A stretch of DNA of 64,000 bases from Halichondria panicea (Eukaryota; Porifera; Demospongiae; Suberitida; Halichondriidae). Both the position numbers and the translations under genes were made by a program. Numbering within the stretch: the stretch's first letter is position 1; every line of letters starts with the position of its first letter. The stretch is from positions 842,501 to 906,500 of the forward strand of contig NC_087377.1 in the NCBI RefSeq assembly GCF_963675165.1, read 5' to 3'. The notes beneath the pieces are model-generated. The model saw only the letters and a list, made by a program, of their open reading frames with translations, searched no databases and was not told the origin of the DNA. Below are positions 3,500 to 61,360 of this stretch, piece by piece.

Positions 3500-4480
3500 G
3501 CACCCTCTATAATACAGCCAGGTTAATGGGTCCCAAAGTCTCTCCATAGCATGTGTTTGGTCTCCATAGCATGTGTTTGGACCTAATGGGCCCCAAAGTC
3601 TCCATAGCATGTGTTTGGACCTGTGTTAGCAGGCCACCCTCTATAATACAGCCAGGTTAATGGGTCCCAATGTCTCTTCATAGCATGTATTTGGACCTAA
3701 TGGGCTCCATAGCATGTGTTTGGACCTGTGTTAGCAGGCCACCCTCTATAATACAGCCAGATTAATGGGTCCCAAAGTCTCCATAGCATGTGTTTGGACC
3801 TGTGTTAGCAGGCCACCCTCTATAATACAGCCAGGTTAATGGGCCCCAAAGTCTCCATAGCATGTATTTGGACCTGTGTTAGCAGGCCACCCTCTATAAT
3901 ACAGCCAGGTTAATGGGTCCCAAAGTCTCCATAGCATGTGTTTGTACCTGTGTTAGCAGGCCACCCTCTATAATACAGCCAGGTCCATAGCATGTATTTG
4001 GACCTGTGTTAGCAGGCCACCCACTATAATACAGCCACTGTTGGTCTGACTAGACAGACCACATTCACAAAATGCAAACCTTATTAGAGGAAACATAAGT
4101 CAACCACTTAGCTACAATGTACACAGTGGGACCACACATAAAGAGGAAATTTCGCCCCCTTCAGCCTTGTTTCCCAGTAAACATAATCATTGTTCAGATC
4201 CTCCCCCTTTTCAGAGAGGTGTCACATTCCACCCCTTTCACAGTAAACAAAGCAAGTTGATGGGCCCCAAAGTCTCCATAGCATGTGTTTGGACCTGTGT
4301 TAGCAGGCCACCCTCTATAATACAGCCAGGTTAATGGGCCCAAAGTCTCTATAGCATGTGTTTGGACCTGTGTTAGCAGACCACCCTCTATAATACAGAC
4401 AGGTTAATGGGCCCCAAAGTCAGCATAGCATGTGTTTGGACCTGTGTTAGCAGACCACCCTCTATAATACAGCCACTGTT
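3500..4480. repeat. 74-bp tandem minisatellite (CTCTATAATACAGCC family)
   Basis: Tandem copies of a unit that I count as 74 bp run from about 3500 to 4040 and again from about 4259 to 4480. Recognisable blocks are CACCCTCTATAATACAGCC, GTCTCCATAGCATGTG and GGACCTGTGTTAGCAGGC. Some units are shortened. The same family occurs at 8635-9400 and 38627-39003, always next to the kinase C-lobe exon. The 8.6 kb copy lacks exactly one unit relative to the 3.6 kb copy, which shifts the alignment offset between them from 4997 to 4923. Confidence 0.95.
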
Positions 4481-8634: not shown

Positions 8635-10967
8635 CCTCTATAATACAGCCAGGTTAATGGGTCCCAATGTCTCTTCATAGCATGTATTTGGACCTAATGG
8701 GCTCCATAGCATGTGTTTGGACCTGTGTTAGCAGGCCACCCTCTATAATACAGCCAGATTAATGGGTCCCAAAGTCTCCATAGCATGTGTTTGGACCTGT
8801 GTTAGCAGGCCACCCTCTATAATACAGCCAGGTTAATGGGTCCCAAAGTCTCCATAGCATGTGTTTGTACCTGTGTTAGCAGGCCACCCTCTATAATACA
8901 GCCAGGTCCATAGCATGTATTTGGACCTGTGTTAGCAGGCCACCCACTATAATACAGCCACTGTTGGTCTGACTAGACAGACCACATTCACAAAATGCAA
9001 ACCTTATTAGAGGAAACATAAGTCAACCACTTAGCTACAATGTACACAGTGGGACCACACATAAAGAGGAAATTTCGCCCCCTTCAGCCTTGTTTCCCAG
9101 TAAACATAATCATTGTTCAGATCCTCCCCCTTTTCAGAGAGGTGTCACATTCCACCCCTTTCACAGTAAACAAAGCAAGTTGATGGGCCCCAAAGTCTCC
9201 ATAGCATGTGTTTGGACCTGTGTTAGCAGGCCACCCTCTATAATACAGCCAGGTTAATGGGCCCAAAGTCTCTATAGCATGTGTTTGGACCTGTGTTAGC
9301 AGACCACCCTCTATAATACAGACAGGTTAATGGGCCCCAAAGTCAGCATAGCATGTGTTTGGACCTGTGTTAGCAGACCACCCTCTATAATACAGCCACT
9401 GTTGGTCTACCCACCACTATACATACACAGGGTATACTAATAGTAAGGTACTCACAAAGACATTAGTGACATGGTTGGTGGTTCCTGTGATCCTGGACAC
9501 CACCTCACACACTTGCCAGATACTGGGACGCAGCTCAGGGTCAGAGGTCAACAGGTAGCCTACAAGGGAGGGGGAGAATACACGTACCATTAGAGCAATA
9601 TACTTAAGACTGGCAGAATAAGCATTATTATAATAGTCTTTAGGGAAATTTATACGTATACCCTGTGTGTGTGTGTGCGTGTGTATGTGTGTGTGTGTGT
9701 GTGGGCGTGGTCTCACCTATCAAGTTGTGCAGGTCTTGTGTGTAAGGAGAGTCTAAGGAGAGTCTTCAGGAATGCTGTACTGAGCACTGACTATGGCTAG
9801 AGGGTTGTCACCAAATGGAGTATCCATGAAGCACAGCTTGAACAGTAGTACACCCAGTGCCTGTGTGTGGGTGGGTGTGTCTTGTGTGAGGGTGTGAGGG
9901 TGTGATGATATGGGTATTATTAGATTCGTCTCATTGAGAGCTTAAGCCTACCACCACTCATCCCCCCACATTCCACAGTCTTGATGACTAGACAGCCCAC
10001 ATTCACTTCAATTAAAATGCAAACCATATTAGAGAAAACATAAGTCACCCACTTAGCTACAGTGTACATAGTGGGACCACACATAAAAGAGGATATTTCG
10101 CCCCTTTCAGCCTTATTTTTCAGTAAACATAATCATTGCTCAGATCCTCCCCTTTTCAGAGAGGTGTCACATTCCACCCAAAGCAATTTGGTAGAATGTC
10201 ATTGAAAGGTCATAATTAGTGAAAGGTCACCTCCAATAGTACTGCCACATGTCGTACATGCATGGATAAACAATTACACCATACTGTAGTTTAAAATACC
10301 ACGACAAATGAAATCTCTGAGCCCATGCCAACTCAGCTAGCGTATGGTTGCTCAATATTGACCTCCCTCCACCAATAAGGTCTAACACAAGGGCAAGCAA
10401 TACTATCAGGAAATATGAACAAAACAATGAACCTCGTGATTATTATCAGTAGCCTACAACAGGTGCCGTCTCTACAAAGCATCTCCTCTCACCTCCATCC
10501 TTTCATGCATTCATCCATTCTTATCCTATAGCACAGCCACTGGACTGGCACATGCTGGCAGCAGATCACATTCACGCTGAGTAGGTAATGGCATATGCTA
10601 GGCCTCGTCATAGATAGTGGTATGGCCTCATCAACCTCATCTTCAGTGCGGCCTGAGATCGAGGCTAAAAGATCCCCTTCCTCCCACGTTTGTGACTTGT
10701 TGCAGTTTGCGTGTCGTGCACAGAGTCATGGAGTATGTTCTCAATCTGAATCAAAATCAATGGAAATAATTATAATTATGTGAGCATGCTTTGTAATTTT
10801 GAATAACCGTGATTTCAATGGATTGTACAGGCCTTGAAATACAAAAATACGCTCGCAAAAATAGCATTAATCATCATTTATTTCTAGCTCTACGGTATCA
10901 TCAACTATTGGATAGAGCTATTGGATGATACTTTATACTCTAAAATGAGTATAATAAATTATGTAAC
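8635..10967. repeat. Duplicated block A' (pairs with 3638-6044)
   Basis: This is the second copy of block A at an offset of 4923 bp (4997 bp before the missing minisatellite unit). Unlike block A it runs on into the flank also found at 40387, so A' occupies the ancestral junction. Confidence 0.95.
9456..9860 (-). pseudogene. AAK1/BIKE-like kinase C-lobe exons, copy 2 (broken)
   Basis: Exons 9717-9860 and 9456-9559 are identical, as far as compared, to copy 1 at 4533-4937. They include the same 11-bp GACTCTCCTTA tandem duplication that creates a stop before the DLH-x-LI segment. The lesion therefore predates the A/A' duplication. The kinase segments recognised are the PFGDNP region and the DPELRPS region of subdomains IX-XI. 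Confidence 0.75.
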
Positions 10968-14633: not shown

Positions 14634-17435
14634 GTCACTAGCAATAGTTTTCCGTTCCCGTGAGTGGGTTCAATTCACTAGCAATAGTTTTGCGTTCCCG
14701 TGAGTGGGTTCAATTCACTAGCAATAGTTTTACGTTCCCGTGAGTGGGTTCAATTCACTAGCAATAGTTTTAAGTTGCCGTGAGTGGGTTCAATTCAGTA
14801 GCAATAGTTTTGCGTTCCCGTGAGTGGGTTCAATTCACTAGCAATAGTTTTACGTTCCCGTGAGTGGGTTCAATTCACTAGCAATAGTTTTACTTTCCCG
14901 TGAGTGGGTTCAATTCACTAGCAATAGTTTTACGTTCCCGTGAGTGGGTTCAATTCACTAGCAATAGTTTTACTTTCCTGTGAGTGGGTTCAATTCACTA
15001 GCAATAGTTTTGCGTTCTTGTGAGTGGGTTCAATTCACTAGCAATAGTTTTACGTTCCCGTGAGTGGGTTCAATTCACTAGCAATAGTTTTACTTTCCTG
15101 TGAGTGGGTTCAATTCACTAGCAATAGTTTTAAGTTGCCGTGAGTGCATGGGTTCACTTCACTAGCAATAGTTTTACGTTCCCGTGAGTGGGTTCAATTC
15201 ACTAGCAATAGTTTTACTTTCCCTTGAGTGGGTTCAATTCACTAGCAATAGTTTTAAGTTGCCGTGAGTGCATGGGTTCACTTCACTAGCAATAGTTTTA
15301 CGTTCCCGTGAGTGGGTTCAATTCACTAGCAATAGTTTTAAGTTGCCGTGAGTGGGTTCAATTCACTAGCAATAGTTTTGCGTTCCCGTGAGTGGGTTCA
15401 ATTCACTAGCAATAGTTTTGCGTTCCCGTGAGTGGGTTCAATTCACTAGCAATAGTTTTACGTTCCCGTGAGTGGGTTCAATTCACTAGCAATAGTTTTA
15501 CTTTCCCGTGAGTGGGTTCAATTCACTAGCAATAGTTTTACGTTCCCGTGAGTGGGTTCAATTCACTAGCAATAGTTTTACTTTCCTGTGAGTGGGTTCA
15601 ATTCACTAGCAATAGTTTTACGTTCCCGTGAATGGGTTCAATTCACTAGCAATAGTTTTGCGTTCTTGTGAGTGGGTTCAATTCACTAGCAATAGTTTTA
15701 CAATCCCGTGAGTGGGTTCAATTCACTAGCAATAGTTTTACTTTCCTGTGAGTGGGTTCAATTCACTAGCAATAGTTTTACGTTCCCGTGAATGGGTTCA
15801 ATTCACTAGCAATAGTTTTGCGTTCTTGTGAGTGGGTTCAATTCACTAGCAATAGTTTTACGTTCCCGTGAGTGGGTTCAATTCACTAGCAATAGTTTTA
15901 CGTTCCCTTGAGTGGGTTCAATTCACTAGCAATAGTTTTGCGTTCCCGTGAGTGGGTTCAATTCACTAGCAATAGTTTTGCGTTCCCGTGAGTGGGTTCA
16001 ATTCACTAGCAATAGTTTTACGTTCCCGTGAGTGGGTTCAATTCACTAGCAATAATTTTACGTTCCCGTGAGATCATGGGTTCAATTCACTAGCAATAGT
16101 TTTACTTTCCTGTGAATGGGTTCAATTCACTAGCAATAGTTTTGCGTTCTTGTGAGTGGGTTCAATTCACTAGCAATAGTTTTACGTTCCCGTGAGTGGG
16201 TTCAATTCACTAGCAATAGTTTTACTTTCCTGTGAGTTGGTTCAATTCACTAGCAATAGTTTTAAGTTGCCGTGAGTGCATGGGTTCACTTCACTAGCAA
16301 TAGTTTTACGTTCCCGTGAGTGGGTTCAATTCACTAGCAATAGTTTTACGTTCCCGTGAGTGGGTTCAATTCACTAGCAATAGTTTTACTTTCCCGTGAG
16401 TTGGTTCAATTCACTAGCAATAGTTTTACGTTCCCTTGAGTGGGTTCAATTAACTAGCAATAGTTTTACGTTCCCGTGAGTGGGTTCAATTCACTAGCAA
16501 TAGTTTTACTTTCCTGTGAGTGGGTTCAATTCACTAGCAATAGTTTTACGTTCCCGTGAGTGGGTTCAATTCACTAGCAATAGTTTTGCGTTCCCGTGAG
16601 TGGGTTCAATTCACTAGCAATAGTTTTACGTTCCCGTGAGTGGGTTCAATTCACTAGCAATAGTTTTAAGTTGCCGTGAGTGGGTTCAATTCACTAGCAA
16701 TAGTTTTAAGTTGCCGTGAGTGCAAGGGTTCACTTCACTAGCAATAGTTTTACGTTCCCGTGAGTGGGTTCAATTCACTAGCAATAGTTTTACGTTCCCT
16801 TGAGTGGGTTCAATTCACTAGCAATAGTTTTGCGTTCCCGTGAGTGGGTTCAATTCACTAGCAATAGTTTTGCGTTCCCGTGAGTGGGTTCAATTCACTA
16901 GCAATAGTTTTACGTTCCCGTGAGTGGGTTCAATTCACTAGCAATAATTTTACGTTCCCGTGAGATCATGGGTTCAATTCACTAGCAATAGTTTTACGTT
17001 CCCGTGAGTGGGTTCAATTCACTAGCAATAGTTTTACGTTCCCGTGAGTGGGTTCAATTCACTAGCAATAGTTTTGCGTTCCCGTGAGTGGGTTCAATTC
17101 ACTAGCAATAGTTTTGCGTTCCCGTGAGTGGGTTCAATTCACTAGCAATAGTTTTGCGTTCCCGTGAGTGGGTTCAATTCACTAGCAATAGTTTTGCGTT
17201 CCCGTGAGTGGGTTCAATTCACTAGCAATAGTTTTGCGTTCCCGTGAGTGGGTTCAATTCACTAGCAATAGTTTTACGTTCCCGTGAGTGGGTTCAATTC
17301 ACTAGCAATAGTTTTGCGTTCCCGTGAGTGGGTTCAATTCACTAGCAATAGTTTTGCGTTCCCGTGAGTGGGTTCAATTCACTAGCAATAGTTTTGCGTT
17401 CCCGTGAGTGGGTTCAATTCACTGACAATAGTTTT
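14634..17435. repeat. 40-bp satellite, array 2 (about 70 units)
   Basis: 2.8 kb of 40-bp units. Most are standard. A 44-bp variant (AAGTTGCCGTGAGTGCATGG then GTTCACTTC) recurs about five times, each time followed by similar neighbours, which suggests block duplication. Units towards the right end are nearly uniform GCGTTCCCG. Confidence 0.98.
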
Positions 17436-24960: not shown

Positions 24961-25340
24961 TCAATTGGTGGCACTATGAGCAACTGCAGTTGCTGTCCTC
25001 ACATACTTGTCTTCAATTTCCTCGGCTACATCGTTACGCTCAACAGTAGGCCTCCTTAGACATTCACATATGTAAGGCCATGTCATCGGTGGATGAGTGA
25101 CTTCAAGACGCTTGGCTACTATCATCGTTAGGCGGCACACATTATCTGTGCTACGATCTCGAATATTTTCCAACTCGTAAAACTTCACCCCGAGAGCCAG
25201 TCCCAAGTTGAACCAATCCTTGCTGGCACTTCTCAGATTCTCACAAATTGTTAGAATATCATCTCCAGTCAGAACCGACGACTGTTGTTGTGCAATTTCT
25301 ACTGTTTGGTTTCTGCTAGTAGGCTCCTCTTGTGACGATC
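24961..25340 (-). CDS. Death-domain C-terminal exon of the SH3/Roc-like gene
   Basis: The exon follows an acceptor made by a (TG)n tract ending GTGTAG and runs to a TGA at 24961-24963. It starts GSSQEEPTSRNQTVE and then has a clear Death domain: DDILTICENLRSA, KDWFNLGLALGVKFYELENI, LTMIVAKRLEV, TWPYICECLRRPTVERNDVA and EEIEDKY. The phase-1 donor at 25909 (CTGGAAG/GTAAG) joins it in frame to the GTPase exon, giving NKLE-GSSQ. After the stop there is another donor-like site (CTGACAAG/GTACGTG at about 24943), so the 3' UTR may be spliced. The role would be Death-fold recruitment downstream of the GTPase. Confidence 0.8.
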
Positions 25341-25375
25341 CTACACACACACACACACACACACACAAGTACATA
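25332..25375. repeat. (CA)n microsatellite at the splice acceptor
   Basis: On the minus strand this is (TG)n running directly into the acceptor TGTAG of the Death-domain exon. It acts as the polypyrimidine region, so its length could affect splicing. Confidence 0.85.
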
Positions 25376-25628
25376 TTGCATTGAAAATGGCCAGTTTTAT
25401 GACAAACTGCAATACAGTAAGCATCTGAAAATGCACAATAATTACGATAATTATAGCAAATTAATGGGGAATGCCAGGACTGTAGGAATCAAGATCATGT
25501 ATTTTCCAGACTGAAGGTTTCCGATTATGATAGATGGAATTATGATAAGAGCTTTGTTTAAGTAAGATAGACCTAGGAGCTAACATTATTGTCCGAAGCT
25601 GGCTTATATTCTGAACACCTTTTACTTG

Positions 25629-25865
25629 TGTAATGCTGAAATGGCTCACACTAAAATGTATGGTAAATAGAATTGGACAGTTGTAAGAGTTCTGTTGTCA
25701 TTGTGGGGCAGAGGAAGTAAACAATGTGTACATTGGTTACATGGTTACATGTATGTAAAGTTTTAATACATGTGTAAGTATAGATGATAAAAGTAATGGG
25801 AGTAATTACTTGTGTAATGCTGAAATGGCTCACACTAAAATGTAAAATGTATGGTAAATAGAATT
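25629..25865. repeat. Direct repeat in the intron between GTPase and Death-domain exons
   Basis: GTGTAATGCTGAAATGGCTC followed by ACACTAAAATG and TATGGTAAATAGAATTG occurs at about 25629-25677 and again at about 25810-25866, about 180 bp apart. Confidence 0.8.
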
Positions 25866-25908
25866 GAATTTTATAATTAAAAAGTAATGGGAGTAATTGA
25901 GATCTTAC

Positions 25909-28050
25909 CTTCCAGTTTATTACAAGCAGAGAGCCAATCTTTGTGACCGTCTTCTAGCTGATACGTCTTCTTGAATAGAGTACACCTCATAACATCGTCC
26001 TCAGCCAGCACACGAGCTGGGTGGTGGGGCACTTGGGGACTTGGACTAGAGATAGATTGAGATATGCAGGGACACAAAAACGCAACTTCAGGATCCTCAT
26101 ACGTGTATTTCAGGGCTTTGTAAGCAGATCGAAGACCAGAGTGAATATTTTCAAATATCAATGACAAAATTGTTTTTCGATTATTGGTGGAATGAATTTC
26201 GAGCATTGAAAACCCGTCAATTAGCGTGACAGTACAGTTTCGCTTTTGATGAATAAATTGTACAAAATTTCTACTCGGCTGGTGATCCTCCATTTCAATT
26301 TCCCATTCACATTCTTTAATCAAGTACACTTGTAGACAGCAAAACACTCCACAGCACTGCCAGTTGCTTTTGAAGTGTAAAACGAGTGGGATTAAATTAG
26401 TCTTCAGCAAATCAGCTCGTTTGTCATTGACTTGAGTTGGTGGGAGCAAGGATAGAAGTGATGGCATATAGAAACGCTTATCTTGCCCTCGTGAGAATAA
26501 ACGAAATGGGGTGGCTATCAGCAAGTGCTTGAATATTTCAATCAAATCGATGGGTGCAAAGAGTCCATCGATATAATGCTTTTCAAAATTCTTATCAGAT
26601 AAAAGTTCAATCGTAATAATTCCTTTATCGGTAAATTTTAACCAGTCTCCTAACCCGTGTATTGGAGTGTTACTTCCTCGCACGTATGCAGCATACTCGA
26701 CAAGCTCTGTTACTTTATCGAGAAGCACTTGAGTATCACAGAATACCACATTTGATAGAATGGCAGGATAATAGTGAAAGATGTGATGCTCATGGAAGAA
26801 TTTCAAAGCTTCACAAAGTGCATCTTCGTGAAAATTATGTAGCGTTTTTGCAATTTCTACACATTCGGTCTTGCTTAGAACTTTTCTGTTTTCATCGTTG
26901 GAAACCTTCTCGACAATAATTTCCAAAATAAACCACCAAAAAGGGACAAGGATTTCAATATTCAACTCTTGAGATAGTTTATGAACATATTCACGAATTG
27001 TCTTTGCCACTTCCTTACTGTCAGGATCGCAGTGTTTGCAATCTACAGGAAATATAATCTCTTTCGTTATACCCAAATTGAAAAACATAGTCAACTTCTT
27101 AATGCAGTCTTTCTCCGCAAAATTCAACAACGTTTTATTCTTGTCAGATAATGTTTCTTTGCATTCAGATTGATGGTCTTTGTGAGTACCAATGCATACC
27201 AGCTTGCAGTTTTCACTATGAGATTGAATTGACTGCACGAGATACTTGAAGTTATCCAAAACTGAGAGATGTGACTTGAAACCTTCACCAACTGGCTTAT
27301 TGTCCTTGTAGTATTCAACCAGTGGATGATCGTCAAGGCAGTCAGAGAGACGAAGAATGTACAAAGCTACAGAAATCTTGGGCATGAAGAGTGGCAGTAG
27401 ATTATGAAAGTGTGGTTGCCCACCGCTATCGATTATGTAGATCCAATGAGATCCAAACTTTTCTTGAACAGCAGTACGATCAGCATCAGAAAATCGCTGA
27501 ATATTCGCCATTACATTTGAAACAGTGCTAAGAAATTTACTCTTTTTTCCTTCTAGCTTACTAGTTAAATTTGCTCCAGCTACTGATGGTTCAGTCGCTC
27601 TTAAAGTCGGAGGAGTTGCATCAACTGGCATATCGAATTCGTTGCTAGGTTCAAGTTGCTTCAGAGCAATGCTGACTTCTTGTGGGATAGCAGATGCTTT
27701 AGAGTTAGGATCTGAGCTGGTTACATGAGATTTAATAGCATCAGCAACAATGCGTTGTAGGTCATCACTAGATACTGGTTTCCATGGTCTAGAGGGATCT
27801 TCTTGAGCTTCCATTTTTATCTTTGTAGTGTCACGAATTTGTCGAATACATATCCTCTCTGCTGTGCTAGCTAATGGAGTGCTATTTCGATCTACAGGAG
27901 GAGGCAGTCCCAGAAGGAGATGCTTAGTGGAGGTTTTACCAGTGCCCGCCATTCCAAAGAATAAGATATTGGTAGTGTTCACACGGACAAATCCAGCCTT
28001 CATGGCTTCATTAAGAGCTTGCTCAGACTTAGATGATTCATCATTGAGGG
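25909..28050 (-). CDS. Roc-like GTPase with COR-like region (large exon)
   Basis: One exon of 2142 bp encodes about 714 residues. Near the N-terminus is a P-loop (FFGMAGTGKTS). About 170 residues on is a Walker B/switch II-like IDSGGQPHFHNLLPLF, and then CIGTHKD in place of the usual NKxD. The spacing includes a long Ser/Pro-rich insertion between P-loop and DSGGQ, about 165 residues, far longer than in small GTPases. The following half (ILVPFWWFILEIIVEKV, IIFPVDCKHCD, a winged-helix-like region, GVFCCLQVYLI) resembles the COR-type module that follows Roc domains in ROCO proteins. The start is probably the acceptor TATTATTTCAG at 28051, giving ALNDESSKSEQ; an alternative acceptor lies at about 28079. 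The right neighbour is the SH3 exons, the left a Death-domain exon. Large metazoan ROCO/Death proteins act in stress and death signalling. It is intact, with no frame breaks. Confidence 0.8.
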
Positions 28051-29321
28051 CTGAAATAATAGGAATACAGACTGAAACCTGAAACACAGTATATACTCGA
28101 CTATGTACCCTTGTGTGAGTCACGTACTTCCCTTGAAAAGGTACCCACTACGTATGTACAGTAACAGTAACTTTCTCACAGTTCATATACAAAAACAAGT
28201 CATCTGTATACACAGCAGGAGCGCATGGATATTCATCATTTCTTTAATATTACTTTTTCATTTCCCTTGTTAGTATTATGATGATATCAAGTGATGAATG
28301 AAATGGTTCACTGTCAATAAAGTGAGCGTGTGTTGTAATACTCATGATATTAATGAATCATAAAACAAAGTATACACATGCATGAAGTCCATGCAGCAAT
28401 CTAACAATGACCACACGATAATTGAATACAATGTACACTAGTCTCACTTGCTTTACGCTATAATTATAGGCAAGCTATGAAGTTGCTTTGTTCTCAGATT
28501 CCTTGTGTCCTGATATTGCTGATTCAGTCACAGTTTCACCCGTTTATATGATCGTACAACAAATTTATGAATAAAACAAAATTAGAGTTTTTCTGTTAAT
28601 TGTGCAAAAACGCTAATGCAAACAGTACGGGGAACTTTATTCTGATGGCTACTGTATATATGTTATTATATACTCATGCAAGAGGCTAATACAACTAGAG
28701 CTAGAGGCATGCTGACGCTTTTGAGAATGGAATTTTAGTAGTGTATGAGAACATGCATTATGGACTAAGTCAGCAAAGAAGACTGGAGTCTTGGACATAA
28801 CTATGGCTCTTCTGGGGCTATAGGATCAGGATAAGCAAAGAAGCAACAATCACAATTATAATTATAGTGATCCTTTTTTCATTCTTCTTGGCACGGGATC
28901 ACTTAACAGTAAAAACGTACCTCGAATAAAGGACGCGTGTAGCTAGCTAGCCATGCAGCGGAAGTTCCGTTTTTGCTTGCTTATATTCAACAACAAAGCT
29001 TTAACGCCTTAACACAACTTGTTGTGTGAAGACTATCTATGCTGTTGACGCAGTGCCATGAAGCCTACTATATACATGACTATACAATGATTGATCATGC
29101 ATAAATATATAATATACATGCAATGCAATATTCAACACAGACGACATAATAATTATATAACTTTAATACAGCAACCCTAATCCGCACTATTATTATAAGA
29201 AGGTGAATGACATAAAGTAATCCAATATATCAGGAGAATATTGACTTGGGCACTACAAATGATATAGAAAACCTCCCATAGTACAGTGTGTGTGCGTGTG
29301 CGTGCAATGTCAAGTTCTTAC
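28051..29321. other. Intron or spacer between SH3 exons and the GTPase exon
   Basis: 1.27 kb without a recognisable exon. Part of it (about 28240-28640) is paralogous to 32570-33010: shared blocks include GTGATGAATGAAATGGTTCAC, CAATAAAGTGA and TTCTCAGATTC. Small exons here cannot be excluded. They decide whether the SH3 and GTPase parts are one gene. Confidence 0.6.
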
Positions 29322-30389
29322 CTGGTTCTGGTGGAGGCTCGGCTGGTACCGGGATGAATTCTATAAAGATACTTGGGAAGACCCCCTCCTTATTGTTGAG
29401 CCTCCCTCTAAACCATCCCTCCTCCTCTTCTGCTATCACCTCAACGATCTACACAACAAAGCAGAATACTCATTTATCATCTAAATACATGTACAATATA
29501 AATGTAAAACCTCGGACTTCCTAACAAGATGAGCAGTTATTACTCTGCCTAACACTTTATGATGGTACAGTGCACATAAGAAAGGAAAGCACATGACTCT
29601 AGTGTATAAGAGAATAATCTGCATGACAATAGACTGGTTTACACAGTTAATAAACATCAACAGCCCTGCACAGAACAGTCAAGTTTTAATTACCTGTCCA
29701 GCTTCAAGAGAAAGCTCGTTAGGACTTTCTGCAACAAAGCTGTACACCACCTTAGCACGTCGGCTCTTTATAGCTCCTCCACCATCTGAAATCACGCAGA
29801 CACGCACATGCATGTAACGTTAGCATAGTTTACAAACATCAGGATATTTTCCTTGTAGCTCTAACTAACTAACAAAGTCTGTTAAGTACCTCGCACAACC
29901 GGTGGCTCTGATGGTGGTTGTGCTGGAGGTGGGATCTTGGCTGGTCTCATTTTGATAAAATTGACAGGGAAGAGCCCTCTTTCTCCATTCAGAGTTCCTT
30001 CACACCAGCCTTCATCAACCTGTGTGTGTAAGTGGGTGGGCTTGTATTGATCCTGTAATGTTAATTTATGGGTGAAAACAGAAAAACGAAAGTCTAGGTG
30101 CACAGAGCTCCCTCTGAAACTAGAACCAACACCCTTTCAGAGGAGGTTATTGCTCCAAATACAGACTCCCCCACACAGGGAGATACCAGCCTGACCACTA
30201 CATACAATACCATTTACAAGACACACTACACACAAAACAAAACACTGTCACAATAGAGAAGAAGCCTGGATCCCTAAACAGTGAAGCAACACACATAACT
30301 CACTGTCACAACATCTTGAATGATATCCCCTACATTCAAAGACAGCTCACCATCTTGAGTTTTCGGAAACGCAAAAAGAACTTCTGCCG
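29322..30389 (-). CDS. Tandem SH3-domain exons (two SH3 domains)
   Basis: Four exons with matching phases: 30304-30389, 29890-30019, 29694-29785 and 29322-29448. The first pair forms SH3-[29 protein letters not shown], then [20 protein letters not shown] and FIKMRP. The second pair forms SH3-[21 protein letters not shown], then [20 protein letters not shown] and [18 protein letters not shown]-like strand, E-L-x-L, G-W and F-P-x-x-F motifs are all present, split by an intron at the same place in each domain. Pro-rich linkers follow both ([19 protein letters not shown]). Organisation is similar to CD2AP/CIN85 adaptors. The last exon ends at a strong phase-1 donor (CCAG/GTAAG) pointing to a further exon on the left, and the phase matches the GTPase exon acceptor at 28051. 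The N-terminus lies to the right of 30389 and was not found. Confidence 0.75.
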
Positions 30390-30886
30390 CTGTTTGGAAA
30401 AACAACATTAATGTGTATCAGGAAGAACAACATAATTATACAACACAAACAAATTCAATGATTTTCTGATTTTTTGAGAGGCTTATAGAAGGAGCTCTTT
30501 CAGATAGCTTGCTCAAATCTCAAATTTAAAACGGGCCATAATTTCTCTTTCAGAAAAATACCATGGGCTACTGTATAGCGGGTATATTTCGAGGGTATAA
30601 ATGTTCGCAGTTTTCGCCTGTACCGGGAAATTTTATACCCATGAAAATTTATGAATAGTACTATTAGTAGGCGTGTTCAGTATTATTGACCACACCTATC
30701 GACAATAAGAGGAAAGAAAAAAGGAATCAAGAGACAAGGACGCCGGTATAGGCCTGATTGTTTTGTACTGGTGCATGCATGCATGGTATCCCCTGATCAT
30801 GGCCTGCACAGCAAACGTTCTGCTAGAGGTGGAAGACATAGTGCCTCACCGATTCTATTATTTTATACAGGCATTCGAGCTCTGGG

Positions 30887-32229: not shown

Positions 32230-32494
32230 TGAAAGGCAGTATAGGGCAGGGATGGAGGAGATGCTCAAGTGATACTGGGATATACCCAGAGGAATGCAAG
32301 CAGGTACTAGGTGAGGGATGGAGGAGATACTCAAGTGATACTGGGAGACCCAGAGGAGAGCATAACTGCAAGCAGGTACTAGGTGAGGGGTGGAGGAGAT
32401 GCTCAAGTGATACTGGGAGACCCAGGGGAGAGCATGACTGCAAGCAGGTACTAGGTGAGGGGTGGAGGAGATGCTCAAGTGATACTGGGAGACT
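32230..32494. repeat. 72-bp minisatellite, about four units
   Basis: Units contain GGAGGAGATGCTCAAGTGAT, ACTGGGAGACCCAGGGGAGA and GCAAGCAGGTACTAGGTGAG. The first unit is shorter. Frames through it on both strands are repeat artefacts. Confidence 0.95.
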
Positions 32495-38512: not shown

Positions 38513-38626
38513 CTGTGAGGTGTGTGTGGGTGTGTGTGTGTGAGGGGGGCAGGTATGTCTAGGTGTGTGAGGGGTGGGAGGTTCAATAAGCAGTATATAG
38601 AGTGGAGCATGTCTATTATGGTCACC

Positions 38627-39003
38627 CTCTATAATACAGCCAAGTTAATGGGTCCCAAAGTCTCCATAGCATGTGTTTGGACCTGTGTTAGCAGACCACC
38701 CTCTATAATACAGCCAAGTTAATGGGTCCCAAAGTCTCCATAGCATGTGTTTGGACCTGTGTTAGCAGACCACCCTCTATAATACAGCCAGGTTAATGGG
38801 TCCCAAAGTCTCCATAGCATGTGTTTGGACCAGGCCACCCTCTATAATACAGCCAGGTTAATGGGCTCCAAAGTCTCCATAGCATGTGTTTGGACCTGTG
38901 TTAGCAGGCCACCCTCTATAATACAGCCAGGTTAATGGGCCCCAAAGTCTCCATAGCATGTGTTTGGACCTGTGTTAGCAGGCCACCCTCTATAATACAG
39001 CCA
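38627..39003. repeat. 74-bp minisatellite, right copy (about five units)
   Basis: Same unit as at 3500-4480, including one shortened unit at about 38830. Confidence 0.95.
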
Positions 39004-48031: not shown

Positions 48032-49451
48032 ATGGCCAAGAGGCCACACTGGACCACGGAGGAGGTTCTACAAGACATCTTGAATGATGAGGAACCTGCA
48101 GAGGAGTGGGAAGATGATATGACAGAGGAGTGGGAAGAGGATATGGAAGAGGATATGGAAGAGGTAACAGCGGACAGGGATGAGCCAGTCATGCAGGGCA
48201 AGAATTTTCTGATTGGGATGAAGGTGGGGTCTAAAACTAAACTGAATACCGATATAATTTATTACAACGTACATGTAGAAATGAATCCCCCGTCAACAGA
48301 CAGCAATCCTGCACAAGGTAAATATTAATAATTATAAGGTTAACAATTTGTACCAGCTATTGATAAATCCTTTCCTAGACGACACAAGTGACGACGACGC
48401 AAGAGACGACGACACAAGTGACGACGACGCAAGTGACGACGACACAAGTGGTTCAAGCAACTCGTCACACGGTTTGTGCAATGTTATGAAGTACAATTAC
48501 AATCAGTTAGACTACCACACAAAACTAATGTACAGGTAATTATTATTACCCTCACATTTATTTAGGCAATGAGCAACCTACCTGGAGGAGTGAATTGCAC
48601 ACCCTGACTATCAAGTCATTTGAGTCAGCAGTAGGACCAACAGTGGACATCTCAGAGACGCCAGAAGAAGTGTAACTGCTATTTTTTAACAATGGTCTGC
48701 AGGGACACATTGTGTGTGAGAGCAACAACTACGCTAGACATATAATGGGAGAGGAGGCATACCGAACGTGGACTCAACTCACAGTTGAAGAGCTCCGGGC
48801 CTTCTTTGGATTCTCCATCCTCATGGGACTCAATCACCTGCCATCAATCAATGACTATTGGAGCCGAGACCATCACTACCATGCACTATGCACCCATCGC
48901 CGATGTAATCTCAAGGCAGAGATTCCGTGATATCTCCCGGTATCTGCACTTTGTGGACAACGACCATCTTGTTCCACAAGGTGATCCCTCGTACGATCGG
49001 TTAGGGAAGATCCGCCCCCTCATTGAGCACCTGGGTGAGAGGTTGGAAGCTTTGTACAACCCTACACAGAATGTAGCAGTGGACGAAGCAATGATTAAGT
49101 TTCAGGGGCAGTCTTCCCTAAAGCAATATATGCCTATGAAACCGATCAAACGGGGGATCAAGGTGTGGGTATTGGCAGATAGTGCTAACGGCTATTTCCA
49201 CAAATTTGACATATACACGGGGAAGCAAAAGAAGAGACAGGTTGGACTTGGTGAGTATGTTGTCAAAACACTTACCGACGGGCTGAAGAAGAAAAATCAC
49301 CACGTTTTCTTTGACAACTTTTTTACGAGCCCCAAACTTCTTGAAGATATGGAGAAGGATGGGTGTGGTGTAGGTTTACCACCAGGACTGAAGAAACATG
49401 GTTTGAAGAAGAGGTACTATTGTGCGTGTGTGTGTATGTGTATGCTTTTGC

Positions 49452-49505
<54 letters not shown>

Positions 49506-50201
49506 TGTGCATGTGTGTGTGTGTGTGTGGTGTGTGGTGTGTGTGACTGTGCTAACTAAAATTATTTATCTCACCTTTGACAGAGGAGAATCCAAGATAT
49601 TCCAGAAGGGACCACTGGTGGCGTGTGCATGGCACGACAGCAAGGAGCTCACGGTCCTCTCAACGACGTCGCAACCAGTAGCAACGGGATCCGTTCTCAG
49701 GCGACAGAGAGACGGTTTAAGAATGCCTGTGAGTTGCCCTGATAGCATAATAATCTACAACAAGCACATGGAAGGTGTGGACAGAGGGGACCAAATACGT
49801 GGATATTATTCCTGTCGAACAAGAAGTCGGAAGTTCTACAAGTATATATTTTATTTCCTATTTGATGTTTCTATCATATTTTACACACTAATTATACCTC
49901 CAAGCCGAATCAAAACGTAAAAGACTTCCGCCTCCAACTGGCCAAGGAGCTGATTGGCACGTACTATTCAAGGAGACTCCCAGGCCGCTCAAGTAGAGTC
50001 CAGCGCCCTCTTCAGCTCCAACACTTTCCTCTCAAAATGTGCCTGCAACCACCTGCAAAGAGATGTAAACGGGGATGGTGTGCGTTCTGCTGGAAGGACT
50101 CCAACAAGAGGACTGACAGATGTAACGAGTGTGGTGTCTGGCTCTGCCATGGTGGAAACCCAACATCAGACTGTTTCTATTTGTGGCATAAGAACTTGTA
50201 A
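48032..50201 (+). pseudogene. piggyBac-type transposase gene (broken)
   Basis: The start MAKRPHWTTEEVLQDILNDE leads into an acidic N-terminus, then a short DDTSDDDARDDD exon (48380 onward). Next is the DDE_Tnp_1_7-type core: SNNYARHIMGEEAYRTW, FFGFSILMGL, RFRDISRYLHFVD, then AVDEAMIKFQG (first catalytic Asp), GIKVWVLADSANGYFHKFDI, HHVFFDNFFTS (second Asp), and later NKHMEGVDRGDQ (third Asp). The C-terminus is a Cys/His zinc-binding tail (CAFCWKDSN, CNECGVWLCHGG, CFYLWHKNL) and TAA. The catalytic triad is therefore present in the DNA. Breaks: in-frame TAA at 48673-48675, a one-base frame change near 48870-48890 and another near 49880-49905. A (TG)n tract sits in an intron (about 49409-49583). 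Terminal repeats with TTAA were not found. It is probably inactive. Confidence 0.85.
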
Positions 50202-54444: not shown

Positions 54445-54667
54445 CCAAACGTTTTGTAGTTTGTGCTTTTTGCGCTGTACTCCCTGTGTTTTGTAGTTTG
54501 TGCTTTTTGCGCTGTACTCCCCCCTTGCATGTGTGACTGTGTTTTTTAATTTGCGCTTTTTGCACTGTACTCCCCCCTTGCATGTGTGACTGTGTTTTGT
54601 AGTTTGTGCTTTTTGCGCTGTACTCCCCCCTTGCATGTTTGACTGTGTTTTGTAGTTTGTGCTTTTT
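54445..54667. repeat. 53-57 bp minisatellite, array 3
   Basis: About four units, one shortened (TGTACTCCCTGTGTTTTG). The last unit runs directly into the 40-bp satellite (TGCTTTTTGCG/TTCCCATGAG). Confidence 0.95.
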
Positions 54668-57600
54668 GCGTTCCCATGAGTGGGTTCAATTCACTAGCAA
54701 TAGTTTTGCGTTCCCGTGAGTGGGTTCAATTCACTAGCAATAGTTTTAAGTTTCCGTGAGTGGGTTAAATTCACTAGCAATAGTTTTACGTTCCCATGAG
54801 TGGGTTCAATTCACTAGCAATAGTTTTGCGTTCCCGTGAGTGGGTTCAATTCACTAGCAATAGTTTTACGTTCCCATGAGTGGGTTCAATTCACTAGCAA
54901 TAGTTTTGCGTTCCCGTGAGTGGGTTCAATTCACTAGCAATAGTTTTACGTTCCCGTGAGTGGGTTCAATTCACTAGCAATAGTTTTAAGTTGCCGTGAG
55001 TGGGTTCAATTCACTAGCAATAGTTTTACGTTCCCATGAGTGGGTTCAATTCACTAGCAATAGTTTTGCGTTCCCGTGAGTGGGTTCAATTCACTAGCAA
55101 TAGTTTTGCGTTCCCGTGAGTGGGTTCAATTCACTAGCAATAGTTTTGCGTTCCCGTGAGTGGGTTCAATTCACTAGCAATAGTTTTGTGTTCCCTTGAG
55201 TGGGTTCAATTCAATAGCAATAGTTTTACTTTCCCTTGAGTGGGTTCAATTCACTAGCAATAGTTTTGCGTTCCCGTGAGTGGGTTCAATTCACTAGCAA
55301 TAGTTTTGCGTTCCCTTGAGTGGGTTCAATTCACTAGCAATAGTTTTACTTTCCCTTGAGTGGGTTCAATTCACTAGCAATAGTTTTACGTTCCCGTAAG
55401 TGGGTTCAATTCACTAGCAATAGTTTTACTTTCCCTTGAGTGGGTTCAATTCACTAGCAATAGTTTTAAGTTGCCGTGAGTGCATGGGTTCACTTCACTA
55501 GCAATAGTTTTACGTTCCCGTGAGTGGGTTCAATTCACTAGCAATAGTTTTACGTTCCCGTGAGTGGGTTCAATTCACTAGCAATAGTTTTGCGTTCCCT
55601 GAGTGGGTTCAATTCACTAGCAATAGTTTTGCGTTCCCGTGAGTGGGTTCAATTCACTAGCAATAGTTTTACGTTCCCGTATGTGGGTTCAATTCACTAG
55701 CAATAGTTTTACTTTCCCGTGAGTGGGTTCAATTCACTAGCAATAGTTTTACTTTCCTGTGAGTGGGTTCAATTCACTAGCAATAGTTTTGCGTTCCCGT
55801 GAGTGGGTTCAATTCACTAGCAATAGTTTTGCGTTCTTGTGAGTGGGTTCAATTCACTAGCAATAGTTTTGCGTTCCCGTGAGTGGGTTCAATTCACTAG
55901 CAATAGTTTTGCGTTCCCGTGAGTGGGTTCAATTCACTAGCAATAGTTTTAAGTTGCCGTGAGTGGGTTCAATTCACTAGCACTAGTTTTAAGTTGCCGT
56001 GAGTGGGTTCAATTCACTAGCAATAGTTTTACGTTCCCATGAGTGGGTTCAATTCACTAGCAATAGTTTTGCGTTCCCGTGAGTGGGTTCAATTCACTAG
56101 CAATAGTTTTGCGTTCCCGTGAGTGGGTTCAATTCACTAGCAATAGTTTTGCGTTCCCTTGAGTGGGTTCAATTCACTAGCAATAGTTTTACTTTCCCTT
56201 GAGTGGGTTCAATTCACTAGCAATAGTTTTACGTTCCCGTAAGTGGGTTCAATTCACTAGCAATAGTTTTACTTTCCCTTGAGTGGGTTCAATTCACTAG
56301 CAATAGTTTTAAGTTGCCGTGAGTGCATGGGTTCACTTCACTAGCAATAGTTTTACGTTCCCGTGAGTGGGTTCAATTCACTAGCAATAGTTTTACTTTC
56401 CCTTGAGTGGGTTCAATTCACTAGCAATAGTTTTACGTTCCCGTGAGTGGGTTCAATTCACTAGCAATAGTTTTACTTTCCCTTGAGTGGGTTCAATTCA
56501 CTAGCAATAGTTTTAAGTTGCCGTGAGTGCATGGGTTCACTTCACTAGCAATAGTTTTACGTTCCCGTGAGTGGGTTCAATTCACTAGCAATAGTTTTAC
56601 GTTCCCTTGAGTGGGTTCAATTCACTAGCAATAGTTTTAAGTTGCCGTGAGTGCATGGGTTCACTTCACTAGCAATAGTTTTACGTTCCCGTGAGTGGGT
56701 TCAATTCACTAGCAATAGTTTTACGTTCCCTTGAGTGGGTTCAATTCACTAGCAATAGTTTTGCGTTCCCTGAGTGGGTTCAATTCACTAGCAATAGTTT
56801 TGCGTTCCCGTGAGTGGGTTCAATTCACTAGCAATAGTTTTGCGTTCCCGTGAGTGGGTTCAATTCACTAGCAATAGTTTTACGTTCTCGTATGTGGGTT
56901 CAATTCACTAGCAATAGTTTTACTTTCCCGTGAGTGGGTTCAATTCACTAGCAATAGTTTTACTTTCCTGTGAGTGGGTTCAATTCACTAGCAATAGTTT
57001 TGCGTTCCCATGAGTGGGTTCAATTCACTAGCAATAGTTTTGCGTTCCCGTGAGTGGGTTCAATTCACTAGCAATAGTTTTACGTTCCCGTGAGTGGGTT
57101 CAATTCACTAGCAATAGTTTTACTTTCCCGTGAGTGGGTTCAATTCACTAGCAATAGTTTTACTTTCCCGTGAGTGGGTTCAATTCACTAGCAATAGTTT
57201 TACGTTCCCGTGAGTGGGTTGAATTCACTAGCAATAGTTTTACGTTCCCGTGAGTGGGTTCAATTCACTAGCAATAGTTTTACGTTCCCGTGAGTGGGTT
57301 CAATTCACTAGCAATAGTTTTGCGTTCCCGTGAGTGGGTTCAATTCACTAGCAATAGTTTTGCGTTCCCGTGGGTGGGTTCAATTCACGAGCAATAGTTT
57401 TGCGTTCCCGTGGGTGGGTTCAATTCACTAGCAATAGTTTTGCGTTCCCGTGAGTGGGTTCAATTCACTAGCAATAGTTTTGCGTTCCCGTGAGTGGTCA
57501 TTAGCAATAGTTTTGCTTTCCCGTGGGTGGGTTCAATTCACTAGCAATAGTTTTGCGTTCTCGTGAGTGGGTTCAATTCACTAGCAATAGTTTTGCATTC

Positions 57601-60600
57601 CCTTGAGTGGGTTCAATTCACTAGCAATAGTTTTACGTTCCCGTGAGTGGGTTCAATTCACTAGCAATAGTTTTAAGTTCCTGTGAGTGGTCACTAGCAA
57701 TAGTTTTGCGTTCCCGTGGGTGGGTTCAATTCACTAGCAATAGTTTTAAGTTCCCGTGAGTGGTCACTAGCAATAGTTTTGCGTTCCCGTGGGTGGGTTC
57801 AATTCACTAGCAATAGTTTTGCGTTCTCGTGAGTGGGTTCAATTCACTAGCAATAGTTTTAAGTTCCCGTGAGTGGTCACTAGCAATAGTTTTGCGTTAC
57901 CGTGGGTGGGTTCAATTCACTAGCAATAGTTTTGCGTTCTCGTGAGTGGATTCAATTCACTAGCAATAGTTTTGCATTCCCTTGAGTGGGTTCAATTCAC
58001 TAGCAATAGTTTTACGTTCCCATGAGTGGGTTCAATTCACTAGCAATAGTTTTACGTTCCCGTGAGTGGGTTCAATTCACTAGCAATAGTTTTAAGTTCC
58101 CGTGAGAGGGTTCAATTCACTAGCAATAGTTTTGCGTTCCCGTGAGTGGGTTCAATTTACTAGCAATAGTTTAGCGTTCCCGTGAGTGGGTTCAATTCAC
58201 TAGCAATAGTTTTGCGTTCCCGTACGTGGGTTCAATTCACTAGCAATAGTTTTGCGTTCCCGTGGGTAGGTTCAATTCACTAGCAATAGTTTTAAGTTCT
58301 CGTTAGTGGTCACTAGCAATAGTTTTGCGTTCCCGTGGGTGGGTTCAATTCACTAGCAATAGTTTTAAGTTCCTGTGAGTGGTCACTAGCAATAGTTTTG
58401 CGTTCCCGTGGGTAGGTTCAATTCACTAGCAATAGTTTTGCGTTCCCGTGAGTGGGTTCAATTCACTAGCAATAGTTTTACGTTCCCGTGAGTGGGTTCA
58501 ATTCACTAGCAATAGTTTTACGTTCCCGTGAGTGGGTTCAATTCACTAGCAATAGTTTTAAGTTCTCGTGAGTGGTCACTAGCAATAGTTTTGCGTTCCC
58601 GTGGGTGGGTTCAATTCACTAGCAATAGTTTTAAGTTCCCGTGAGTGGTCACTAGCAATAGTTTTGCGTTCCCGTGGGTGGGTTCAATTCACTAGCAATA
58701 GTTTTAAGTTCCTGTGACTGGTCACTAGCAATAGTTTTGCGTTCCCGTGGGTGGGTTCAATTCACTAGCAATAGTTTTGCGTTCCCGTGAGTTGGTTCAA
58801 TTCACTAGCAATAGTTTTACGTTCCCATGAGTGGGTTCAATTCACTAGCAATAGTTTTACGTTCCCGTGGGTGGGTTCAATTCACTAGCAATAGTTTTAA
58901 GTTCCCGTGAGTGGTCACTAGCAATAGTTTTGCGTTCCCGTGGGTGGGTTCAATTCACTAGCGATAGTTTTGCGTTCTCGTGAGTGGGTTCAATTCACTA
59001 GCAATAGTTTTAAGTTCCCGTGAGTGGTGACTAGCAATAGTTTTGCGTTCCCGTGGGTGGGTTCAATTCACTAGCAATAATTTTGCGTTCTCGTGAGTGG
59101 ATTCAATTCACTAGCAATAGTTTTGCATTCCCTTGAGTGGGTTCAATTCACTAGCAATAGTTTTACGTTCCCATGAGTGGGTTTAATTCACTAGCAATAG
59201 TTTTACGTTCCCGTGAGTGGGTTCAATTCACTAGCAATAGTTTTAAGTTCCCGTGAGTGGGTTTAATTCACTAGCAATAGTTTTATGTTCCCGTGAGTGG
59301 GTTCAATTCACTAGCAATAGTTTTACGTTCCGTGAGTGGGTTCAATTCACTAGCAATAGTTTTAAGTTCCCGTGAGTGGTCACCTGCAATAGTTTTGCGT
59401 TCCCATGAGTGGATTCAATTCACTAGCAATAGTTTTGGGTTCCCGTGGGTGGGTTCAATTCACTAGCAATAGTTTTAAGTTCTCGTGAGTGGTCACTAGC
59501 AATAGTTTTGCGTTCCCATGAGTGGGTTCAATTCACTAGCAATAGTTTTGCGTTCCCGTGGGTAGGTTCAATTCACTAGCAATGGTTTTGCGTTCCCGTG
59601 GGTGGGTTCAATTCACTAGCAATAGTTTTACGTTCCGTGAGTGGGTTCAATTCACTAGCAATAGTTTTGCGTTCCCGTGGGTGGGTTTAATTCACTAGCA
59701 ATAGTTTTACGTTCCCGTGAGTGGGTTCAATTCACTAGCAATAGTTTTAAGTTCCCGTTAGTGGTCACTAGCAATAGTTTTGCGTTCCCATGAGTGGATT
59801 AAATTCACTAGCAATAGTTTTGGGTTCCCGTGGGTGGGTTCAATTCACTAGCAATAGTTTTAAGTTCTCGTGAGTGGTCACTAGCAATAGTTTTGCGTTT
59901 CCGTGGGTGGGTTCAATTCACTAGCAATAATTTTAAGTTCCTGTGAGTGGTCACTAGCAATAGTTTTGCGTTCCCATGTGTGGGTTCAATTCACTAGCAA
60001 TAGTTTTGCGTTCTCGTGGGTGGGTTCAATTCACTAGCAATAGTTTTAAGTTCTCGTGAGTGGTCACTAGCAATAGTTTTGCGTTCCCGTGGGTGGGTTC
60101 AATTCACTAGCAATAGTTTTAAGTTCTTGTGAGTGGTCACTAGCAATAGTTTTGCGTTCCCGTGGGTGGGTTCAATTCACTAGCAATAGTTTTGCGTTCC
60201 CGTGGGTGGGTTCAATTCACTAGCAATAGTTTTAAGTTCCTGTGAGTGGTCACTAGCAATAGTTTTGCGTTCCCGTGGGTGGGTTCAATTCACTAGCAAT
60301 AGTTTTGCGTTCCCGTGAGTGGGTTCAATTCACTAGCAATAGTTTTACGTTCCCGTGAGTGGGTTCAATTCACTAGCAATAGTTTTACGTTCCCGTGAGT
60401 GGGTTCAATTCACTAGCAATAGTTTTAAGTTCTCGTGAGTTGTCACTAGCAATAGTTTTGCGTTCCCGTGGGTGGGTTCAATTCACTAGCAATAGTTTTA
60501 AGTTCCTGTGAGTGGTCACTAGCAATAGTTTTGCGTTCCCGTGGGTGGGTTCAATTCACTAGCAATAGTTTTGCGTTCCCGTGAGTGGGTTCAATTCACT

Positions 60601-61360
60601 AGCAATAGTTTTACGTTCCCGTCAGTGGGTTCAATTCACTAGCAATAGTTTTACGTTCCCGTGAGTGGGTTCAATTCACTAGCAATAGTTTTAAGTTCTC
60701 GTGAGTGGTCACTAGCAATAGTTTTGCGTTCCCGTGGGTGGGTTCAATTCACTAGCAATAGTTTTGCGTTCCCGTGGGTGGGTTCAATTCACTAGCAATA
60801 GTTTTAAGTTCCTGTGAGTGGTCACTAGCAATAGTTTTGCGTTCCCGTGGGTGGGTTCAATTCACTAGCAATAGTTTTGCGTTCCCGTGAGTGGGTTCAA
60901 TTCACTAGCAATAGTTTTACGTTCCCGTGAGTGGGTTCAATTCACTAGCAATAGTTTTACGTTCCCGTGAGTGGGTTCAATTCACTAGCAATAGTTTTAA
61001 GTTCTCGTGAGTTGTCACTAGCAATAGTTTTGCGTTCCCGTGGGTGGGTTCAATTCACTAGCAATAGTTTTAAGTTCCTGTGAGTGGTCACTAGCAATAG
61101 TTTTGCGTTCCCGTGGGTGGGTTCAATTCACTAGCAATAGTTTTGCGTTCCCGTGAGTGGGTTCAATTCACTAGCAATAGTTTTACGTTCCCGTCAGTGG
61201 GTTCAATTCACTAGCAATAGTTTTACGTTCCCGTGAGTGGGTTCAATTCACTAGCAATAGTTTTAAGTTCTCGTGAGTGGTCACTAGCAATAGTTTTGCG
61301 TTCCCGTGGGTGGGTTCAATTCACTAGCAATAGTTTTGCGTTCCCGTGGGTGGGTTCAAT
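54668..61360. repeat. 40-bp satellite, array 4 (6.7 kb) with higher-order structure
   Basis: About 170 units. From about 57480 onward a 33-bp variant lacking GGTTCAA (GTGAGTGGTCACTAGC) is interspersed with 40-bp units. Near the right end the arrangement repeats with a period of 572 bp: rare variants GAGTTGTCAC (60440 and 61012) and CCGTCAGTGG (60619 and 61191) recur at that spacing, consistent with 11 units of 40 plus 4 of 33. The array stops at GGGTTCAAT, where sequence starting CATAGATAG begins. Confidence 0.97.

Follow-up and report, generated by a model that had tools for sequence, protein, structure and literature searches.

Exon structure of the locus

The DNA analysed here, referred to as the window, is a stretch of 64,000 nucleotides of the Halichondria panicea genome (contig NC_087377.1, positions 842,501 to 906,500). 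Six minus-strand exons with GT donors and AG acceptors follow one another in this stretch (Table 1), and when joined they form a single open frame that extends down to the stop codon at 24961. The first four exons constitute an SH3 block of 86 + 130 + 92 + 127 = 435 nt with phase 1-1, and the fifth, a GTPase exon of 2142 nt (714 codons), is likewise phase 1-1. An earlier note on this DNA had claimed six exons with mutually compatible phases, and the GT/AG boundaries together with the open joined frame confirm that claim.

Table 1. Features of the SH3–GTPase–Death-like locus (positions are those of the window)
Feature	Position	Strand	Remarks
Dispersed repeat bordering the SH3 block upstream	30569..30879	-	in all 7 derived copies keeping SH3-A
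In-frame ATG directly 5' of SH3-A	30406..30408	-	in 2 of 8 copies compared (window, C1:452k)
SH3-A, first half exon	30304..30389	-	phase 1; lacks 1 nt, to be supplied by an upstream exon; aligned with the other copies and the C16 parent
SH3-A, second half exon, and proline-rich linker	29890..30019	-	
SH3-B, first half exon	29694..29785	-	
SH3-B, second half exon, ending ...PEP; phase-1 donor GTAAGA from 29321	29322..29448	-	
Spacer of 1.27 kb, putative intron	28051..29321	-	splicing across it would join SH3-B to the GTPase exon
Candidate alternative last exon of an SH3-only transcript (A-PEEP-stop)	28801..28817	-	inside a dispersed repeat
Roc-like GTPase exon: P-loop GMAGTGKT, DSGGQPHFHNLLP, GTHKD, C-terminal region where COR would stand	25909..28050	-	
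Death-like last exon, containing the stop codon; acceptor of phase 1	24961..25340	-	

Origin of the SH3 pair

The first four exons, when joined, encode two SH3 domains (Pfam SH3_1, PF00018, E 7e-27, in two stretches); taken singly, these exons correspond to half-domains. The whole genome (131 Mb, 39 contigs) was searched with SH3-B, and the second half exon was found to have nine close places (at least 84% identity), seven on C1, one on C15 and one on C16. The C16 gene contains a third SH3 domain at C16:2658577, and its sequence, as read, stays in frame beyond SH3-B, where it has the same phase-1 donor. Because of these two properties we take the C16 gene to be the parent, a CIN85/CD2AP-like adaptor with three SH3 domains, and the window SH3 pair to be a partial copy of it. 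The other eight places (seven on C1 and the one on C15) are taken as derived copies. A comparison with the PDB matched the parent SH3 pair to GRB2, SH3KBP1 and CD2AP chains, with GRB2 slightly higher as whole sequences. The earlier description of the tandem as CIN85-like is upheld by both the SH3_1 match and the matches of the parent pair to SH3KBP1 and CD2AP. SH3-A and SH3-B of the window resemble those of CIN85/SH3KBP1 and CD2AP; the window copy differs from these adaptors, which have three SH3 domains and a proline-rich/coiled-coil tail, in having two SH3 domains without the adaptor C-terminus.

Homology to the C16 parent begins only at 30453, and the likely first exon of the parent (MSQKQ, phase 1) appears to lie outside the copied stretch. 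An initiator exon for the window SH3 block was not found. The ATG directly 5' of SH3-A is a possible start if an upstream exon is absent. SH3-A is complete in seven of the eight derived copies, the copy at C1:4660k being degraded, and the SH3-B donor is GTAAGA in three of the nine copies and GTCAGA in six, the parent among them. The window differs from the parent in having AFP for DYE in SH3-A, VNF for DNF at the end of SH3-A and SIF for SNF at the end of SH3-B, at sites that we take to be SH3 ligand-contact positions. As the residues at these presumed contact positions differ from the parent, the binding of proline-rich ligands that had been suggested for the locus is doubtful for the window copy.

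Identity of the GTPase and Death-like exons

The GTPase exon of the window carries motifs that we take to be the P-loop, DSGGQ and GTHKD motifs of a GTPase, and the P-loop, STPL, D-GGQP and GT--D columns were invariant over 14 relatives. The window exon had no match in Pfam, and the Pfam Roc profile (PF08477) was detected in 10 of the 14 relatives, all below cut-off (best E 0.0077). The COR-A profile (PF16095) matched none of these 14 relatives, and in a genome-wide COR-A search the window exon was not among the 64 matches, which included other ORFs on C1, two of which follow an SH3 copy. Thus, what had been described as a Roc/COR-like exon retains its GTPase motifs and its 714 codons, Roc is recognized at sub-threshold level in relatives and COR was not found by Pfam profile; on this basis the exon is called a Roc-like GTPase. 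A PDB search with a profile of the GTPase returned five matches, none convincing (best E 0.4), and an NCBIfam search gave nothing useful. For prokaryotic relatives, 26 pattern matches were obtained, none of which was confirmed by tblastn.

The last exon was similarly weak in profile searches. Pfam Death (PF00531) matched it with an E of 0.097, below cut-off, and matched four of its seven relatives without reaching cut-off (best 0.018), and a PDB profile search yielded one match, 2of5_H (LRR and death domain protein), with an E of 0.77. The Death-domain exon of the earlier note is accordingly better described as Death-like. At C1:551k and C1:452k the SH3 and GTPase exons are accompanied by another Death exon type, which scores better but narrowly misses the cut-off (E 2.2e-4 and 3.1e-4) and whose acceptor is also phase 1. 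A genome search with the window Death exon gave 463 candidates, of which 150 were scored, so that its relatives number at least 150. With this exon as query, 10 of the 29 GTPase loci were seen to have a matching Death-like exon within the 1.5 kb that follow them; L012 has a weak Death fragment only, L035 has its Death match upstream instead, and L010 and L017 have the other Death type downstream.

Recurrence of the SH3 block upstream of GTPase exons

A Roc-like GTPase exon is present on the same strand 1243–1822 bp downstream of six of the eight derived SH3 copies. Three copies precede members of the window's GTPase family (window, 1275 bp; C1:551k, 1243 bp; C1:452k, 1822 bp), and three precede members of a second family (C1:278k, 1787 bp; C1:510k, 1444 bp; C15:1464k, 1778 bp) whose relationship to the first was detected by hhalign (probability 97.7, E 2.5e-12). 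All five acceptors read (window, C1:551k, C1:452k, C1:278k and C1:510k) are phase 1, spanning both families; the acceptor of C1:452k is TAG, and CAG is found in the other SH3-bearing copies of the window's family. The match between the phase-1 donor at 29321 and the acceptor at 28051, to which the earlier note had drawn attention, is real. Alone it is worth one in three by chance, and it gains weight because the same order recurs in these six copies with phase 1 at each acceptor read. Downstream of the remaining two derived copies are a COR-A match, at 4.1 kb (C1:13307306) and 10.5 kb (C1:4671043), and a Death exon, at 6.1 kb (C1:13309276) and 12.7 kb (C1:4673245), and no G domain was seen there.

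A GTPase exon lies within 2 kb of five of the seven C1 copies, compared with at most three of seven in 20,000 random placements over the first 5.7 Mb with 44 GTPase starts, a test that overstates independence because the SH3 copies are duplicates of one another. Moreover, the spacer is common to six of the eight derived copies, the window included, down to about 28251–28266 or beyond, so the SH3–GTPase arrangements are related by duplication and are not independent. Homology of C1:278k, C1:510k and C15:1464k to the window stops at 28251–28266, short of the GTPase exon, and two different SH3–GTPase junctions exist among the copies. Part of the spacer (28693–29067) matches a dispersed repeat.

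Two adjoining genes would be another explanation of this order. A truncated SH3-SH3 gene would end in the spacer, for example at the A-PEEP-stop exon, and a GTPase-Death gene would start alone, either at an ATG that lies in frame 16 codons ahead of the P-loop and would allow a separate GTPase gene, or in an unseen short exon. Promoter or poly(A) evidence was sought in the spacer, and only the terminal-exon candidate within the dispersed repeat emerged, which is not decisive. This candidate with its stop codon (TAG in two, TAA in three) and AATAAA (at 28641–28636 in the window) was present in all five spacer copies compared, and 21 of the 24 GTPase-exon places with at least 78% identity have no SH3 copy close upstream among the matches listed. 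Together with the usable Met before the P-loop, these findings speak for two genes. However, the candidate resides inside a dispersed repeat, 1.27 kb of such composition is estimated to contain one AATAAA or so by chance, and the SH3 block precedes two GTPase families whose acceptors, where read, are phase 1, for which chance allows one in three per family. We therefore regard two adjoining genes as rather doubtful.

Mosaic ancestry and N-terminal variety

The three parts of the locus have different nearest relatives. The SH3 exons of the window share 100% identity with C1:452k and 95.4% with C1:551k. In contrast, the protein encoded by the GTPase exon is 98% identical to that of C1:551k and 88% identical to that of C1:452k, and the nearer relative along the DNA switches between approximately 28.5 and 27.7 kb. 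The Death exon is 98% identical to that of C1:700k and 97% identical to two others, yet the GTPase beside the C1:700k Death exon is only 88% like that of the window. The simplest reading of these identities is that all three parts were exchanged in or near the phase-1 introns. With same-phase boundaries and parts of different nearest relatives, the locus has the make-up of an exon-shuffled gene of phase 1-1 modules, its splicing being predicted.

Upstream flanks of 1.5 kb were inspected at 28 of the 29 GTPase loci (the duplicate L014 was left out; L011, L015 and L025 were partly masked). A common 5' exon was not recognized across these flanks, the sequence of which was varied. Pfam was run on six pieces, one of them the second GTPase, and no module was recognized in the other flanks. 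L031 has an ankyrin exon upstream (E 2.2e-7) with a phase-1 donor. L026 (C15:4179087) contains a piece of NACHT (truncated domain, E 1.6e-9) in the same ORF upstream of the GTPase, giving two P-loop domains in one ORF. In the distant relatives L034 and L035 (40% identity), Death precedes the GTPase, in the same ORF in L034 (E 7.4e-7) and as a weaker upstream match in L035 (E 0.0025). From these four loci we conclude that N-terminal variety exists in the GTPase family.

As a separate observation, the expansion of GTPase and Death exons is very large and genome-wide but concentrated in C1 0–5.6 Mb. The matches listed number 65 for the first GTPase family and 146 for the second, and at least 150 and 102 for the two Death exon types. 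Dozens of GTPase and Death places on C1 are 75–98% identical to the query.

Selection on the GTPase and SH3 exons

The GTPase exon is under constraint. Mean dN over mean dS was 0.34 among 20 copies of the window's family (190 pairs; the set left out the duplicate L014, L028, L031 and L032, which have stops or are cut short, and the distant L033–L038). The ratio was about 0.2 near the G motifs and in the 400–500 stretch and about 0.6–0.95 in the insert before DSGGQ. For the SH3 exons, the ratio summed over 15 pairs of six distinct derived copies was about 0.97, with single pairs ranging from 0.51 to 4.0, in an alignment in which the parent row is misaligned at one SH3-A spot. These exons are 94–100% identical between derived copies, and their divergence is approximately equal to that of the introns.

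All seven full derived SH3 copies (six distinct) are without a stop codon and have a length that is a multiple of three. A scripted count of gap runs among seven derived copies gave two in exons, both of 18 nt in the proline-rich linker, and 29 in introns, four of which were multiples of three; simple-repeat gap runs may count one event repeatedly, and the intron number may be high. At the intron rate, about 21 exon gap runs would be expected, a figure obtained from a hand-picked list of indels. Retention of the SH3 frame looks greater than chance. The few exon gaps together with a dN/dS of about 0.97 therefore indicate free change of residues within a preserved frame, a pattern that could reflect either diversification or a young block that is losing its old ligand.

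The same data bear on whether the SH3 block is coding at all. It might be a non-coding passenger, that is, a young duplicated fragment of a gene that lies next to repeats, carried with the GTPase cluster and still unbroken. A dN/dS near 1 and the equal divergence of exons and introns would fit such a fragment, as would the missing first exon, the repeat at the upstream edge, the degradation of one of the eight derived copies (C1:4660k) and the altered residues at the presumed ligand-contact positions. However, a decaying fragment does not sit well with seven of seven full copies open and in multiples of three, with so few exon gaps or with the GT and AG dinucleotides kept at the exon ends of the full copies compared. 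We consider a non-coding passenger to be quite unlikely.

A predicted composite GTPase-Death protein

We somewhat favour a single gene that encodes a Roc-like GTPase-Death protein with captured SH3 exons. This preference is based on the in-phase recurrence of the SH3 block before two GTPase families, its kept frame, the symmetric phases and the other N-terminal fusions in the family; against it stand the SH3 dN/dS of about 1, the initiator exon that was not found, the duplicated nature of the copies, the possible SH3-only end and the usable Met before the P-loop. The predicted product is probably a composite signalling protein of new make. To generate it, the exons of two SH3 domains, introns included, would have been copied from the three-SH3 CIN85/CD2AP-like adaptor gene, and this phase 1-1 unit would have been placed before the phase 1-1 GTPase exon, which is followed by the phase-1 Death-like last exon. 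The family to which the gene would belong is large and of recent amplification, and recombination in or near introns would have swapped parts among its copies. The protein may work in the manner of intracellular receptors of immunity or cell death: a protein ligand would be sensed or tethered by the SH3 pair, assembly would be switched by the GTPase under nucleotide control, and a partner with a Death fold would be recruited through the Death exon.

A more specific version is an animal counterpart of the integrated-decoy receptors of plants, in which shuffled intracellular GTPase-Death receptors would have taken as bait the ligand-binding SH3 pair of an endocytic adaptor of the host (CIN85/CD2AP-like) and would swap bait, switch and Death exon via phase-1 introns. 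We hold this version to be unlikely; if it is true, the kept SH3 frame and the dN/dS of about 1 would signify diversification, not decay. Transcription of the locus as one gene would mean that GTPase-Death signalling proteins arise through the exchange of entire phase 1-1 exon units, among them domains captured from an adaptor gene. The young copies would then allow the exon-shuffling origin of receptor diversity to be followed stepwise, and the integrated-decoy idea would become testable outside plants.

Comparison with known systems

MACC1 and SH3BP4 combine SH3 and Death domains in one protein together with ZU5/UPA. The predicted protein shares the SH3 and Death combination with them, and it has a GTPase where they have ZU5/UPA. 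ROCO proteins of the DAPK1 type have the domain order kinase, ankyrin, Roc-COR and Death. As in that type, the window has a Roc-like GTPase followed by a C-terminal Death-like domain, and an ankyrin exon precedes the GTPase of the relative L031. It differs in that an SH3 pair is present in place of a visible kinase, Roc is sub-threshold and COR is not recognized by Pfam. In a review, DAPK1 is set apart from the other Roco proteins as a group distinguished by its death domain (PMC6337361).

In Trichoplax, Roc-COR is reported together with CARD, Death and TIR domains: a survey of these proteins describes CARD and death domains, and the legend of its Figure 1 lists SH3 (PMC4104024). At the level of that legend, the likeness is that Roc-COR is combined with death-fold and other domains, SH3 among them. 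The SH3–GTPase arrangement had been called unfamiliar in the earlier note, a statement that this legend softens. Within the open-licence PMC papers covered by the search terms used, no description of an SH3-SH3-GTPase-Death protein was met. Brown algae are described as having an expanded LRR-ROCO family with single-phase exons and N-terminal exon shuffling, for which a role in immunity was proposed (PMC11378527). An expanded GTPase family, single-phase exons and exon shuffling are common to both systems, but the algal genes shuffle phase-2 LRR exons, whereas here unlike whole modules (the SH3 pair, the Death types) are shuffled in phase 1. In another sponge, Amphimedon, TRADD-N proteins that carry Death-like domains are reported to have expanded (PMC8195603).

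Repeats and other features

In the C1:452k spacer (L017/L039, C1 approximately 451–452 kb), a few hundred bases have been inserted, and the ends of this insertion read by eye as an inverted repeat (MITE-like). At 32248–32493 the window contains a 72-bp tandem repeat; read on the opposite strand, it looks similar by eye to the sequence at which C15:1464k departs from the common spacer, and it is possibly linked to that breakpoint.

Elsewhere in the window, plus-strand ORFs at 48746–49920 are transposase-like (DDE_Tnp_1_7, E 1.2e-41 and 1.7e-11) and presumably piggyBac-like; a TG-repeat stretch (49421–49545) lies where the two ORFs meet. Long tandem arrays of a single 40-bp repeat occupy 14635–17435 (about 69 copies), 54664–61360 (about 172) and 62358–63630 (about 33), and are adjoined by repeats of 53–57 bp. 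Arrays of a 73–74-bp repeat are located at 3705–4475, 8702–9398 and 38623–39003, the first two being laid out alike at a distance of about 5 kb.
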